Below, piece by piece: positions 4,371-13,326 of a stretch of 25,477 nt of DNA (the first letter of the stretch is position 1; every line of letters starts with the position of its first letter). Origin of the DNA: a virus; the IMG/VR virus record IMGVR_UViG_3300043399_000328, positions 1-25,477 of that record; one strand, given 5' to 3'. Both the position numbers and the translations under genes were made by a program. A model generated the notes under the pieces. It had not been told where the DNA came from. It made no database searches and saw only the letters and a list, made by a program, of their open reading frames with translations.

Positions 4371-5054
4371 ATGATATTTACAAAAAATAAATACACTAAA
4401 TGGTATTTCAATATTATTGAAAATGCAAAGAAAAGATTACCTAATTTTGAAGGTGAAATTCATCATATAATACCTAAATCATTAGGGGGATCAAATAAAA
4501 ATGAAAATCTTGTAAAGCTTTTACACAGAGAACATTATATATGTCATTTGTTGTTAACAAAAATGTTAGAAGATAAAAATTCTATTATAAAAATGTGTTG
4601 GGCTTTACATAGATTAACTTTTTCTAAAACTATTTTTAATAGTCATCAATATGAAATTAGTAGAAAAATTCATATTAAAAATTTAAAAGAAAATCACCCG
4701 TCAAAAAAACAAAGTTGGAGAGATAAAGTATCTGATATTGTTTATAGTCATTGGGAAAATAATGAAAAAAGAAAAAAAGACACATCCAATAGAATGAAAA
4801 AAAATTGGATTAATAATAAAGAAAAATTATTAGAACATAACAGAAATATTTCTAAATTAGGCGGACAAGCTTCTAAACAAAAAAACTCAAAAAAAATTGA
4901 ATATAAAGGTGAAACATATATGGGATGGAAAGAATTAGAAGAAAAAACTAACATATCTAAACATTTGTATGTAAAATATTATATTAACGGCATTGATCCT
5001 GAATTTAGAGTTGGTGCTAATGGTCCTCTTAAAAATGTAAAGGAGAGTCAGTGA
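4371..5054 (+). CDS. HNH homing endonuclease (Mob-like)
   Basis: This 227-residue protein carries an HNH nuclease motif at the N-terminus: GEIHHIIPKSLGG (residues 28-40), an Asn in SNKNENLV (41-48) and LLHREHYICHLL (50-61), giving the His-Asn-His pattern. The middle is very Lys/Asn-rich, and the C-terminal YKGETYMGWKELEEKTNIS resembles a NUMOD1-type helix-turn-helix specificity module. AAGGA at 4358-4362 sets the start. It sits between a small gene-55-linked gene and gene 47, and its TGA stop overlaps the current gene 47 ATG by one base. Its extreme A-richness differs from its neighbours. Flanking structure suggests that it inserted at the gene 47 start and brought a substitute start with it. 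Confidence 0.88.
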   Translation: MIFTKNKYTKWYFNIIENAKKRLPNFEGEIHHIIPKSLGGSNKNENLVKLLHREHYICHLLLTKMLEDKNSIIKMCWALHRLTFSKTIFNSHQYEISRKIHIKNLKENHPSKKQSWRDKVSDIVYSHWENNEKRKKDTSNRMKKNWINNKEKLLEHNRNISKLGGQASKQKNSKKIEYKGETYMGWKELEEKTNISKHLYVKYYINGIDPEFRVGANGPLKNVKESQ

Positions 5055-6113
5055 TGCGTATAGCACTTATAACTGACACACACTTTCGGTATTCGAAATG
5101 ATAACATTGCGTTCTTGGATAACAATAAGCTGTTTCTTGATAATGTCTTCTTTCCTTATTTGGAAAAACATGGAATACGTGATATTATTCATCTTGGGGA
5201 TCTCGTTGATCGTAGGAAATTTATTAACTTCAATACTTTGAACAGATTAAAAGAGGATTTTTTACATCCTCTTACTGGCAGAAATATGAATGTTCATATC
5301 ATTGCTGGCAACCATGACACATACTTTAAAAACACAAACGAAATTAATGCACTACGTGAATTAGTATACGGTAAGTATCCGTTTCATATTTACGATAGAT
5401 ATGCAGAAGTTGTAAAATTCGAAAACCTACCTATTCTTTTAACACCATGGATATGTGATGACAACAGAAAACAAGTTTTGGAAACAATACAGCGAGGCGG
5501 CACGTCAGTTTGTGCAGGACACTTGGAAATTCAAGGTTTCGAGATGTATAGGGGAAGTATCGTATCACATGGTGACGACCGTTCTTTATTTGGGCGTTTT
5601 GACATGGTTCTTAGCGGTCATTTTCATCACCGTTCCACTGATGGTTCTATTTTCTATCTTGGCAGTCATGGCGAGTTTACCTGGTCTGACTATGATGATC
5701 CTCGAGGATTTCATATTTTGGATACAGAGACGTTGGAACTCACGTTCATAGAAAATCCATATAAAATGTTTAATAAGATATGGTATAATGATACAAACCC
5801 ATATGTTATTGAAGAATTAGATTTATCTAAGTATGCAGGTCAATATATAAAAGTGGTTGTTTCAAATAAGAATGATCCTTATACATTTGATAGATTTATT
5901 GATTGTTTAGAAAAATCAAATCCTTTAGATGTTCAAATTGTAGAGGATCATTTGAATCTTGATATAGAAGATGAAAGCATTATCAATGAAGCAGAATCAA
6001 CTTTAGATATATTTAATAAGTACATTGAATCTATTGATTCTCAAAATTTTGATAAACAAAAAGTAGCAACTAAGATAAACGAAATATATTATGAGGCATT
6101 GAAGATAGAATGA
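5054..6113 (+). CDS. 47: Recombination nuclease subunit gp47 (SbcD/Mre11-like), apparent +1 frameshift
   Basis: gp47 is the nuclease of the gp46/gp47 complex that resects DNA ends for recombination-dependent replication and helps degrade host DNA. ATG at 5054, with AGGAG upstream, reads M-R-I-A-L-I-T-D-T-H-F and then stops at 5099 after 15 codons. Skipping one base (C at 5087) restores GIRNDN and a continuous frame to 6113, about 352 residues (T4: 339). Metallophosphatase motifs are DTH (8-10) before the shift, then GDLVDRR (48-54), GNHD (85-88), GH (155-156) and GHFHH (188-192). Motif I is upstream of the shift, so an internal TTG start at 5115 would lose it. Either a sequencing error, a mutation, or +1 frameshifting at TTT-CGG is involved. 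The stop overlaps gene 46 by ATGA. Confidence 0.9.
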
Positions 6114-8800: not shown

Positions 8801-8986
8801 ATGAAGTCTTTTTTTAATTACATTAGATACTCTAACGTCAACTTGTCAATAAATCTTAATCCGTTTGTGTGGGGCTTTCATGTTGTGTATGAACGTCCCA
8901 CAACAATGGATCCAAAGATGTATTTCTTTGCAATTAAGATATTGATGTGTAGACTATCAATTGTGATAGATGATGGGAGTTACTAG
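8801..8986 (+). CDS. Small conserved-type phage protein of unknown function
   Basis: This 61-residue protein starts one base after the deformylase stop and ends in a TAG overlapping the next GTG start. It contains NLSINLNPFVWGFHVVYE and a C-terminal hydrophobic stretch followed by VIDDGSY. I recall similar short proteins (NPFVWGF...DMDP...VDDG) in other environmental T4-like phages, without function. It has one moderately hydrophobic segment, but the pattern looks more like beta strands than a membrane helix. No obvious motif supports an enzymatic role. Confidence 0.65.
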   Translation: MKSFFNYIRYSNVNLSINLNPFVWGFHVVYERPTTMDPKMYFFAIKILMCRLSIVIDDGSY

Positions 8987-9525
8987 TGAACATTTTCTAT
9001 ATTGATGAAGATCCGGTTGTTGCAGCACAACAAATGGTTGATAAGCATGTTGTAAAGATGATCCTTGAGTCAGCGCAGTTGCTTTCAACAGCACATCGTT
9101 TTCTTGATGGTCATTTAGTCATGGGTAAATCTGAAACAGGTCGCAATGTTAAGCGTTGGATTTTAGCAGATGCACGTGAACCTATTCTTTATCAAGCAAC
9201 ACATATCAATCATCCATCAGCAATTTGGTGTCGTGAATCTGTAGAAAATTATAATTGGTTAGTCGATCATTTCTTCGCACTTATGAATGAATATACACAT
9301 CGTTATGGTAAGCACCATAAGTGTTCAGGTGATATTTCATACATGTTGCAATCACCTCCTCATAAACTAGAAGAATTTGATAGGACAAAGATGCCATGTG
9401 CAATGGCAGAAGAATATATTATTTCAGATGATTCTGTAATCAACTATCGCAATTACTATAAAGTAGGTAAAGCACATTTACATTCTTATACTAAAAGAAA
9501 TCCTCCTGACTGGCTACTCGCTTGA
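8986..9525 (+). CDS. Conserved-type phage protein of unknown function with a substituted C-terminus
   Basis: The gene uses a GTG start (8986) fixed by GGGAG at 8975-8979. The 179-residue protein has an N-terminal MNIFYIDEDP, a helical segment around DKHVVKMILESAQLL (19-33), the motif HINHPSAIW (73-81) and a Trp/Tyr-rich helical middle (NYNWLVDHFFALMNEYTHRYGK). Similar proteins recur in T4-like phages; the helical DKH...E arrangement is vaguely like T4 DenV pyrimidine-dimer glycosylase, but I would not assign that function. Its current C-terminus (AHLHSYTKRNPPDWLLA) is closely paralleled by a remnant at 10191-10247 beyond the antisense homing gene, which suggests that the end was replaced when that gene inserted. 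It overlaps the homing gene by 35 bases tail to tail. Confidence 0.75.
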   Translation: MNIFYIDEDPVVAAQQMVDKHVVKMILESAQLLSTAHRFLDGHLVMGKSETGRNVKRWILADAREPILYQATHINHPSAIWCRESVENYNWLVDHFFALMNEYTHRYGKHHKCSGDISYMLQSPPHKLEEFDRTKMPCAMAEEYIISDDSVINYRNYYKVGKAHLHSYTKRNPPDWLLA

Positions 9526-10156
9526 GATGTCTTGATAGATTTCCGGGGTCATAAAGTTTATTACAATGTGGGCATTGTTTTTTAACTGGAGAATTAAAGT
9601 TCTCCACTTTATGACCCCTCCTATTGCGTCTTAACTGACGTATTTCTTCTGCTCTTTCAGGTCCGTATATCTCTTCGTAAGTTTTTCCTTTGAGATAAAT
9701 TTTAGATTTGCATTTCAAACTATCGGATAACTTATTTTTGATTTTCTGTGATTTTTCAATCCCGAATAATTCATCAAAAGATGAACCTTTTCTCTTTTCA
9801 CTGAGTTTTCTCTTGGTTTCTTCAGAATGTTTTTTACCACTCATACCTTTGGGATGAACTGCATATCTTATTGCACCGGCTATGTTGGCATTTAGCCATT
9901 CTGTTTTATTTAAAACTTTAAGTCTTCTTAAAACTCGCTGTTCCCATGATATAGCTGCTTCTTTGCTATCAAAAACTTTACGGATTTGATAGTCAAATGA
10001 TTCTATCCCATACTCTTCGATTAAAAATCGAACTTTCTTAGAGGAAGAAAAATAAGTTTTCCACAAATCATTTGGGGAGCAGTTATTTGCATAACGTACT
10101 CCATAGTATTTAACTCCTGTAGGTCGATGAAATAAATAATATGTGAAAGGTGTCAT
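9491..10156 (-). CDS. GIY-YIG homing endonuclease, antisense
   Basis: This gene is on the opposite strand to its surroundings. The N-terminus shows a GIY-YIG domain (TYYLFHRPTGVKYYGVRYAN), a probable catalytic Glu in ISWEQRVL and the typical WLNANI element. NUMOD3-like repeats follow (MSGKKHSEETKRKLSEK), then Arg-rich helices and a C-terminal CPHC...GNLSRHLKR zinc-finger-like end in which the expected last ligand is missing (Val). GGAG on the minus strand lies eight bases before the Met at 10156, so I prefer it to a Met two codons earlier. An exact late promoter precedes it. Its 3' end overlaps the neighbouring plus-strand gene. It is most likely a selfish homing gene inserted at the original 3' end of that gene. 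Confidence 0.87.
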   Translation of the reverse strand: MTPFTYYLFHRPTGVKYYGVRYANNCSPNDLWKTYFSSSKKVRFLIEEYGIESFDYQIRKVFDSKEAAISWEQRVLRRLKVLNKTEWLNANIAGAIRYAVHPKGMSGKKHSEETKRKLSEKRKGSSFDELFGIEKSQKIKNKLSDSLKCKSKIYLKGKTYEEIYGPERAEEIRQLRRNRRGHKVENFNSPVKKQCPHCNKLYDPGNLSRHLKRVASQEDFF

Positions 10157-10181
10157 TGACATAACTCCGTATATAATATAT

Positions 10182-10189
10182 TATTTATA
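10182..10189 (-). promoter_or_regulatory. T4-type late promoter for the antisense homing gene
   Basis: TATTTATA on the plus strand reads TATAAATA on the minus strand, the exact late consensus, 25 bases before the homing gene start. It is followed by an AT-only palindrome (10173-10184) and the ribosome site. Late transcription from here would be antisense to the 3' end of the 179-residue gene. Confidence 0.8.
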
Positions 10190-10190
10190 T

Positions 10191-10247
10191 GAAGCTAACT
10201 TTCACAAGTGGACTAATCGTCAACCACCGGAATGGATTAATGGATAA
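10191..10247 (+). pseudogene. Displaced original 3' end of the 8986-9525 gene
   Basis: In the frame ending at TAA 10245-10247 the sequence reads E-A-N-F-H-K-W-T-N-R-Q-P-P-E-W-I-N-G. This parallels the current C-terminus of the upstream gene, A-H-L-H-S-Y-T-K-R-N-P-P-D-W-L-L-A: seven of fifteen positions are identical (A, H, T, R, P, P, W) and most others are conservative. The fragment has no start of its own. Its stop overlaps the deaminase ATG at 10240 by eight bases, the sort of junction expected if it once was the true end of the preceding operon gene. I infer displacement by the antisense homing gene. Confidence 0.75.
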
Positions 10248-10698
10248 GTGGCATAATAGGTTTTTAGAGTTAGCAAAGCATGTTTCATCATGGTCGAAGG
10301 ATAGCACCAAAGTTGGAGCGGTTATTGTCAAACCTTTCAGCAAGAAAGTTATTGGTCTTGGATATAATGGTTTTCCTCGTTTCGTTGATGATGATCCTGA
10401 TCGTTATTCTGACCGTGATACAAAACTAAAGTTTGTTTGTCACGCTGAATTAAATGCTATTTTCAACGCAAATGGACCTGTTGACGGATGTGATATTTAC
10501 GTATATCCTACGATGATGAATCCTGCTTCATGTCCTGAGTGTGCAAAAGCAATTGTACAGTCAGGCATTCGTTCATTATATTATTATAAGAATAATAAAA
10601 CAAATCCTAAGTGGGATGAATTGTCTGTATTTTCAAAAAAGATTTTATCAGAAGGACGTGTTCATTGCGTCGAAATAGAGGAAAATAATAATGAGTAA
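10240..10698 (+). CDS. cd: Deoxycytidylate (dCMP) deaminase
   Basis: dCMP deaminase converts dCMP to dUMP and feeds thymidylate synthesis for phage DNA. From Met at 10240 (MDKWHNRFLELAKHVSSWSKDST...) the protein is 152 residues and matches the family start. The zinc-site motifs CHAELNAI and PASCPECAKAIVQSGI carry the His, catalytic Glu and two Cys ligands, and GYNGFPR is the substrate-loop motif. A longer in-frame reading from 10189 adds 17 residues, but these come from the out-of-frame remnant of the previous gene, so I reject it. The ribosome site (GGA at 10229-10231) is weak, consistent with coupling to the original upstream stop. The stop overlaps mazG-like by eight bases. Confidence 0.93.
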   Translation: MDKWHNRFLELAKHVSSWSKDSTKVGAVIVKPFSKKVIGLGYNGFPRFVDDDPDRYSDRDTKLKFVCHAELNAIFNANGPVDGCDIYVYPTMMNPASCPECAKAIVQSGIRSLYYYKNNKTNPKWDELSVFSKKILSEGRVHCVEIEENNNE

Positions 10699-12585: not shown

Positions 12586-13326
12586 ATGACCAATCCTAAA
12601 AATAAAAAAACATTACAAGATCTTATTAATGAAACAAAACATTTAAATATAGTTTTTATTAGTGAATATGTTGATACTGATACAAAAATAAAATATATTT
12701 GTCAGCATGGCGAAAATGAATCACGTCCGTGGCAACTAAAAAAGCAAAAATTTTGTTGTAGAAAAGATTATTATAATTCTGGTATTATGTGGTCATCAAA
12801 TAAAAAAGATATTTCATATAGACAACAAGAAATATTATCCAAATATGAATGTGTTAATGTTGATGAAATATCAATAGATTCAGTTTATGTATATAATATA
12901 AAATGTACTAAACATAATATTGTTTATAATCAACGTTTAGCATCTATTCAAAAAGGTTTAAATGGGTGTAAACAATGTAAAAAAGAAACTAAAATTTTAT
13001 ACGCTAAGCAAAATTTAAACAATAATAATTTTGGAGGATATGTTTCTAAAGCAGAAACTAATTGGTTAGATAAAATTGCCCCTAATTGCAAAAGACAATA
13101 TTGGCTTAATGATGTAAAATATAAAGTTGATGGTTTCGATGAAACAACAAATACTGTATATCTTTATCATGGAAGATTTTGGCATGGTTGTCCTGAAACA
13201 TATGATCCTGAAATGGTTCACCCTGTTGTAAAATTAAAAATGAAAGACTTATACGAAAAAACAAAATATTATGAGAATAAAATTATAAAAGCGGGATATA
13301 ATTTGATAGTTGAATGGGGAACTTGA
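12586..13326 (+). CDS. EDxHD/Vsr-like homing endonuclease
   Basis: This 246-residue protein resembles phage homing endonucleases with a very-short-patch-repair-like fold (the I-Bth0305I EDxHD group). The C-terminal nuclease domain shows AETNWLDKIA (catalytic Glu), KYKVDGFDE (Asp), VYLYHGRFWHGCPETYDP (the His motif), then DLYEKTKYYENKIIKAGYNLIVEW, the usual ending. The N-terminal half has Cys pairs (CRKDY, CTKH, CKQCKKE) that may form zinc-stabilised DNA-binding modules. It interrupts the deazaguanine block between queE and the YkgJ-like gene, is strongly A-rich, and is controlled by the hairpin and late promoter upstream. Its TGA overlaps the next ATG by one base. Confidence 0.83.
   Translation: MTNPKNKKTLQDLINETKHLNIVFISEYVDTDTKIKYICQHGENESRPWQLKKQKFCCRKDYYNSGIMWSSNKKDISYRQQEILSKYECVNVDEISIDSVYVYNIKCTKHNIVYNQRLASIQKGLNGCKQCKKETKILYAKQNLNNNNFGGYVSKAETNWLDKIAPNCKRQYWLNDVKYKVDGFDETTNTVYLYHGRFWHGCPETYDPEMVHPVVKLKMKDLYEKTKYYENKIIKAGYNLIVEWGT

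Follow-up and report, generated by a model that had tools for sequence, protein, structure and literature searches.

The window, that is, the whole stretch of DNA analysed here, covers positions 1 to 25,477 of the IMG/VR record IMGVR_UViG_3300043399_000328, a 25.5-kb virus contig with T4-like genes of replication and nucleotide metabolism. One of its genes, 8986-9525 on the plus strand, belongs to the family PF03013 (Pyr_excise; phrog_624), and its product ends with GKAHLHSYTKRNPPDWLLA. The gene appears to be a composite. Its body (8986-9474) is homologous to the element-free relatives L016 and L002 up to about 9471-9473, which marks it as the part derived from the recipient of an insertion. 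Its last codons (9475-9525, AHLHSYTKRNPPDWLLA and a stop) do not match the relatives of their own gene body; they resemble the ends of other nuclease-bearing loci and of L226, and will be called the substitute end.

Antisense to this target lies the free-standing gene of a GIY-YIG homing endonuclease (9491-10162, minus strand). Its 3' end overlaps the substitute end by 35 nt (9491-9525), and its stop codon is found within the sequence ACTAAA of the latter. The predicted protein matches PF19835 (SegE_GIY-YIG) with 30.4 bits at a cut-off of 25 (E 5e-7) and the homing endonucleases of phrog_314 with an E of 5e-19; a NUMOD3 match stays just under the cut-off. The C-terminal region, separate from the nuclease domain and taken as DNA-binding, contains a zinc-finger-like motif, CPHC-x11-H-x4-R (9524-9574, minus strand), which is the most conserved region when the nuclease is aligned with those of two other loci, L088 and L089. 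Twenty nucleotides 5' of the nuclease start, the pattern TATAAATA (10182-10189, minus strand) resembles a T4 late promoter; with 6 such matches in the window and 3.7 expected, it is weak if taken alone.

Beyond the nuclease gene, the plus strand encodes a second version of the target's end (10191-10247, ANFHKWTNRQPPEWING and a stop), which has no usable start. It runs into a dCMP deaminase gene (10240-10698, plus strand; PF00383), the native downstream neighbour, and its stop shares eight bases with the deaminase ATG (ATGGATAA, 10240-10247). The leftover probably contains the ribosome-binding region of the deaminase gene, since it overlaps the start of the latter. A sigma-70-like sequence (11 of 12 positions; 10156-10184, plus strand) near the nuclease start is directed at the same gene; as the consensus scan found 4 such sequences in the region with 3.2 expected, it is a lead only. 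For T4 it is believed that homing genes are more readily retained when they contain a promoter (PMC2988022), and the start overlap and the sigma-70-like sequence may likewise be leads as to why the leftover has persisted. For annotation it is a trap: an ATG at 10189 reads via the leftover into the deaminase gene and yields a spurious N-terminal extension of 17 residues.

Which of the two ends is the native one can be decided by comparison. The best 80 of 346 relatives of the target gene in viral contigs were retrieved, and a profile was built from 93 native gene ends. On this profile the fragment 10191-10247 scores 54.0 bits, the end now in use 35.4, and the chance maximum, determined on the reverse strands of 200 loci, is 2.9 bits. 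The fragment is more native-looking than the gene's current end. In a shared-peptide scan of about 90 homing genes, the pair of ends in the window scored 58; the limit was 52, the maximum of 150 mismatched pairs. In L016, the target gene with a native-type end (GKASMHSWKKRQPPEWIFDKVAQ and a stop) is followed directly by a deaminase gene 79% identical to that of the window. The window can be aligned with L016 up to 9473 and again from 10209 on; in L016 the two blocks are 13 nt apart. The window thus has the layout of L016 plus about 0.72 kb inside the 3' end of the gene, and the profile score and this homology identify 10191-10247 as the native 3' end of the gene at 8986-9525.

A preliminary description of the stretch had already drawn the parallel between the C-terminus of the target product and this fragment, and its coordinates, its peptides and the eight-base overlap prove to be exact. 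It had further predicted that in phages without the homing gene the target would run with the native type of end into the deaminase gene, which is what L016 displays. The opposite layout, the 9475-9525 end beside the deaminase gene without any sequence like 10191-10247, was not found in the element-free relatives. In the close relatives among these, substitutions were not generally enriched at the insertion site.

The arrangement is not unique. In 2.9 million viral contigs, the top two relatives of the nuclease are those of L088 and L089. The former is 58% identical to the window nuclease across the whole protein; the latter has a different N-terminal half and shares with the window the C-terminal half (59%). 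Both contain weak zf-C2H2 matches. No relative of the C-terminal domain was detected in 84,980 prokaryote genomes, and among the matches listed from phage records, the nuclease relatives all lie at places other than this site. In L088 and L089, too, the nuclease gene is antisense to a gene of the PF03013 family and overlaps its 3' end; the surrounding genes are different from those in the window. The target genes end with GKKHLHKYTKRQPPQWLYG and GKKHLHKYTKRSAPFWL, respectively, and past each nuclease gene, just 5' of the next gene, stands a truncated native end (HLHKWRK... in L088; KLHKWTK and a stop in L089). These leftovers are short and, scored alone on the native-end profile, do not rise above chance. 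They count as evidence because of their position and the synteny. The next gene of L088 directly follows a native-ended gene in the element-free L244, L246 and L247 (88-94% identical), that of L089 in the element-free L220 (72%). Past the nuclease gene, L246 is 95% identical to L088 across 778 bp and L164 is 95.7% identical to L089 across 1,748 bp; on the gene side, L164 and L089 agree to 89% up to about codon 159. The nuclease gene is thus an allele present or absent at this site, with empty sites in L016, L164 and L246. All leftovers start two or three codons ahead of HKW, which implies that insertions in three backgrounds occurred at one position.

A metagenome contig may of course be an assembly chimera, here of two strains. 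Assembly may be difficult at this site, as a few contigs of the target gene stop nearby: L001, L057, L068 and L238 have their right ends no more than about 50 nt away from it. Yet the same architecture recurs in contigs of different samples with different neighbours, and also at thyX (see below), which makes a chimera highly improbable. We also considered these contig ends as a sign of polymorphism in the population; the ends are few and the idea arose post hoc, and it was given up.

A native-type end in frame past an insert would also be expected of an intron, with the displaced end as a second exon joined by RNA splicing. The gene, however, needs no splicing to be complete, the antisense nuclease gene occupies 672 of the approximately 715 inserted nucleotides, and the leftovers of L088 and L089 are truncated. 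Searches of the window for Rfam introns and for a group I ribozyme core gave no match, and none that was meaningful at a permissive threshold. The intron reading was rejected; we give it practically no credence.

The substitute ends are of foreign affinity. The body of the L089 gene is 93% identical to that of L162, the end only 53%; compared with L088, the end has 93% identity and the body only 64%. At nucleotide sites that distinguish L162 from L226, the L089 body sides with L162 (167:20) and the end with L226 (2:12; p 2.6e-9). At sites that distinguish the native L002 from L226, which has the YTKR type of end, the window body sides with the native gene (107:41) and the end with L226 (1:13; Fisher p 2e-6). 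The preliminary description had asked whether the two ends come from different lineages, and by this contrast their affinities differ. Taken alone, the L088 end shows no significant departure from its body (p 0.07). All these p-values assume independent sites, and the genes compared were picked after looking. Taken together, the foreign ends are more alike than the gene bodies predict.

Two homologous ends on either side of a nuclease gene could in principle go back to a 3' end that was first duplicated in tandem in this lineage; the nuclease gene would then have entered between the two copies, which diverged. We consider this very unlikely. The end in use is nearer to those of distant nuclease-bearing phages than to the displaced copy or to local relatives, no element-free relative among those examined has two ends, and three lineages would each require the duplication.

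One codon stands out at the site. All three nuclease-bearing genes have tyrosine (TAT) where 119 of the 122 others, among 125 distinct genes, have tryptophan (TGG). The contrast is an association, not three independent changes, because the three ends share ancestry. Among genes without the nuclease gene, tryptophan is lacking in L226 (HKYTKRNPPDWL), in L046/L056 (HAYTN) and in one distant gene. In L226 the end is of the donor type and the nuclease gene is absent. That the tyrosine codon might be forced by the overlapping nuclease gene was considered and dropped: the TAT lies outside the nuclease reading frame, since the nuclease stop is in the adjacent ACTAAA.

An unrelated target, thyX, provides a further view of such insertions. 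Loci above the limit of the shared-peptide scan, apart from the window, were L154 (123), L046 (118), L111 (117) and L101 (62). In L111 (624-2029) another GIY-YIG gene, again antisense, shares about 32 nt with the 3' end of thyX, and past this nuclease gene the end of thyX occurs a second time; no second end was seen in the thyX relatives tabulated. The antisense overlaps between nuclease gene and target 3' end are of similar size (29-35 nt) in L088, L089, L111 and L389. Close relatives of the L111 nuclease gene (79-88%) are present in six contigs; phage records yielded distant relatives only. In L389 and L390, the nuclease gene is located between an intact thyX, which it overlaps by 35 nt, and another gene, and there is no displaced end. 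From reading its sequence, we take this neighbour to be nrdA, the gene of the large ribonucleotide reductase subunit. In L387, L388, L391 and L392 the nuclease gene again adjoins this nrdA-like gene, and thyX lies farther off. The thyX genes of these phages contain HYCELR, as does the present end of L111, whereas the L111 leftover reads HFIALR, like ordinary thyX. The contrast between body and end in L111 is modest and weaker than for the PF03013 gene. The order thyX-nuclease-nrdA without a displaced end likely is the ancestral state: the nuclease gene would sit harmlessly behind its target and leave by homology on the gene side only.

These observations argue that a free-standing GIY-YIG gene invaded a phage gene at its conserved 3' end through one-sided homing, a reading to which we assign a probability of about 0.7. 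In the donor, the nuclease gene would lie antisense just past an intact copy of the target, with some 30 nt of overlap. This layout is seen in the thyX version (L389/L390); for the PF03013 gene it occurs in no contig examined. In the recipient, the nuclease would cut the target near the codons for GK-x-x-x-H-x-W, where the junctions coincide. The break on the gene side could pair with the donor's copy of the gene, whereby the donor 3' end and the nuclease gene would be copied in. The other break would lack a homologous partner, as donor and recipient have different genes downstream, and would presumably be joined illegitimately, which strands the recipient's native 3' end. This would give the observed order: the recipient's gene body, the end from the donor, the nuclease gene in antisense, then the recipient's native end and its downstream gene. 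The change of TGG to TAT at the presumed recognition site may guard the new allele against being cut again.

The preliminary description had proposed that the element came in "bringing or leaving" a divergent end that kept the host gene functional. The first part holds in so far as a foreign end appears to have been brought; the second does not, since the native end was not left in place but displaced. That the insertion was without harm is plausible from structure prediction: the hybrid product has full length, and the model is confident throughout, the substitute end included (mean pLDDT 92). A search of the host-gene profile against the PDB and a fold search with the model gave no significant match, so the function of the host protein rests on the Pfam and PHROG names only.

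The substitute end needs no purpose-built patch. Its simplest cause would be co-conversion of the donor end during one-sided repair. Co-conversion tracts would vary in length, and they seem to: the divergence of L088 from L246 starts about 65 codons further left than the foreign tract of L089, as expected for a longer gene-side tract. One may instead regard the end and the nuclease gene as a fixed mobile unit, selected as a patch for gene repair and inserting whatever its neighbours. The two overlap by 29-35 nt, always occur together in nuclease-bearing loci, and the ends are alike across divergent bodies. The left boundary, however, is not fixed, as the L088 tract reaches further than that of L089, the thyX nuclease gene occurs also without a displaced end, and ordinary co-conversion explains the end with no special selection. 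We therefore regard the fixed unit as unlikely and return to one-sided homing, for which precedents exist.

The layout itself is known from fungal mitochondria. Hybrid genes have been described for atp6 of Allomyces macrogynus and for atp6, atp9, cox2 and nad3 of Glomus sp. (PMC3630166). They have the order core, foreign C-terminal end, endonuclease ORF, displaced native end, and their foreign and native ends fall into different clusters (PMC3630166). The window likewise has its substitute end in frame and the displaced native end past the endonuclease ORF, and the foreignness of the substitute end is reflected in the incongruence of body and end in the window and in L089, though not significantly for L088 alone. 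The fungal cases differ in that they are mitochondrial and mostly involve LAGLIDADG enzymes, with one GIY-YIG (atp9), and in that the ORF is in some of them in phase with the gene (PMC3630166); here it is antisense, overlaps the substitute end and resides in phages. The intergenic relative of the nuclease, as seen at thyX, is a further feature of the phage case that sets it apart.

One-sided homing with illegitimate junctions has been demonstrated for the td intron of T4 (Parker et al. 1999, reviewed in PMC2988022). It shares with the course proposed here the homology on one side only and the non-homologous junction on the other. It was a laboratory intron system, however, whereas here natural free-standing genes are concerned and a displaced gene end is the product. 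The seg endonucleases of T4 are similar in their GIY-YIG fold, in being free-standing and in the co-conversion of flanks; their genes lie between genes common to relatives and are transferred by two-sided homology (PMC2988022), whereas the present one is inside a gene and has replaced its end. Free-standing homing genes within coding sequence are also known as mobE in nrdA of Aeh1 and mobA in gene 60 of T4, but these split the gene into two polypeptides (PMC2988022), and here one full-length gene with a replaced end results. Finally, phage nuclease genes have been found at exchange boundaries, where homology between phages changes as it does here; the passages concerned describe no duplicated or displaced gene end (PMC10448857). 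The search for end replacement by a homing gene in phages covered the open-access literature and revealed no published case.

The same layout in other phages looks like a recurring way to invade coding sequence while the gene is kept unbroken. It would provide a route by which free-standing homing genes target conserved coding sequence without splicing. It ties the one-sided repair of T4 in the laboratory and an oddity of fungal mitochondria to natural phage genomes. The displaced gene end may serve as a readable scar to map invasions across unrelated phages, and the nearly identical filled and empty sites make the spread of free-standing homing genes to new contexts testable. Tentatively, at slightly less than even odds, we suggest that phage homing genes have, besides self-splicing introns and inteins, a third general route into conserved coding sequence: exchange of a gene end, be it 3' or 5', through co-conversion of an intact donor end, which leaves a whole target, a resistant site and a fossil end. 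If so, each fossil of a native end records one invasion. The exchange would affect unrelated genes, i.e., the PF03013 gene at both ends, thyX and probably nrdB/glutaredoxin and another gene, and involve at least two nuclease types.

The 5' version is encountered in L046 (640-2320) and L077 (1251-2931). A nuclease-like gene of 302 residues, with a TnsA-like domain just under the cut-off and a weak zinc finger, is situated inside the 5' part of a PF03013 gene. Upstream of it, roughly the first 28 codons remain as a leftover that reads into a stop; on the downstream side the gene is whole, and its first approximately 35 codons are different. L056 (1-140) represents the empty-site allele: 78 of 79 nt are the same as in the leftover of L046/L077, and the sequence then continues as the gene. 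By this comparison L046/L077 is taken as the mirror case, in which the 5' end is replaced. The target genes of L046 and L077 differ from each other in 12 of 20 nt at nucleotides 511-530 of 558 and in 1 of 538 elsewhere. The 20 nt coincide exactly with the GIY-YIG insertion site (HLHAYTN vs RMHSWKN), and the difference looks like a possible local swap of the putative recognition site.

In L154 (959-2302), the end of an nrdB-like gene occurs a second time, fused behind a glutaredoxin-like start and placed between two homing-gene-like ORFs; L155 is without this copy. In L101 (1800-3708), the homing-gene ORF is in sense orientation, and the C-terminus that it encodes (KYMKKHVFGNKIYNT) repeats the end of the preceding gene (KYMRAHVFGGKVYET), as if the displaced end had been turned into a part of the nuclease ORF.

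The window contains further homing-endonuclease-like genes at 30-599, 4371-5054 and 12586-13326 (phrog_314, phrog_655, phrog_681); the shared-peptide scan detected no flanking shared peptide at any of them. The pattern TATAAATA occurs a few dozen nucleotides 5' of those at 4371 and 12586, as for the gene starting at 10162. In the region 5053-5115, a gp47-like gene has an apparent extra base near 5088 (ATGCGTATAGCACTTATAACTGACACACACTTTC/GGTATTCGAAATGATAAC), because of which the gp47-like start is out of frame with the ORF at 5115-6113; it appears to be either a sequencing error or a real frameshift.
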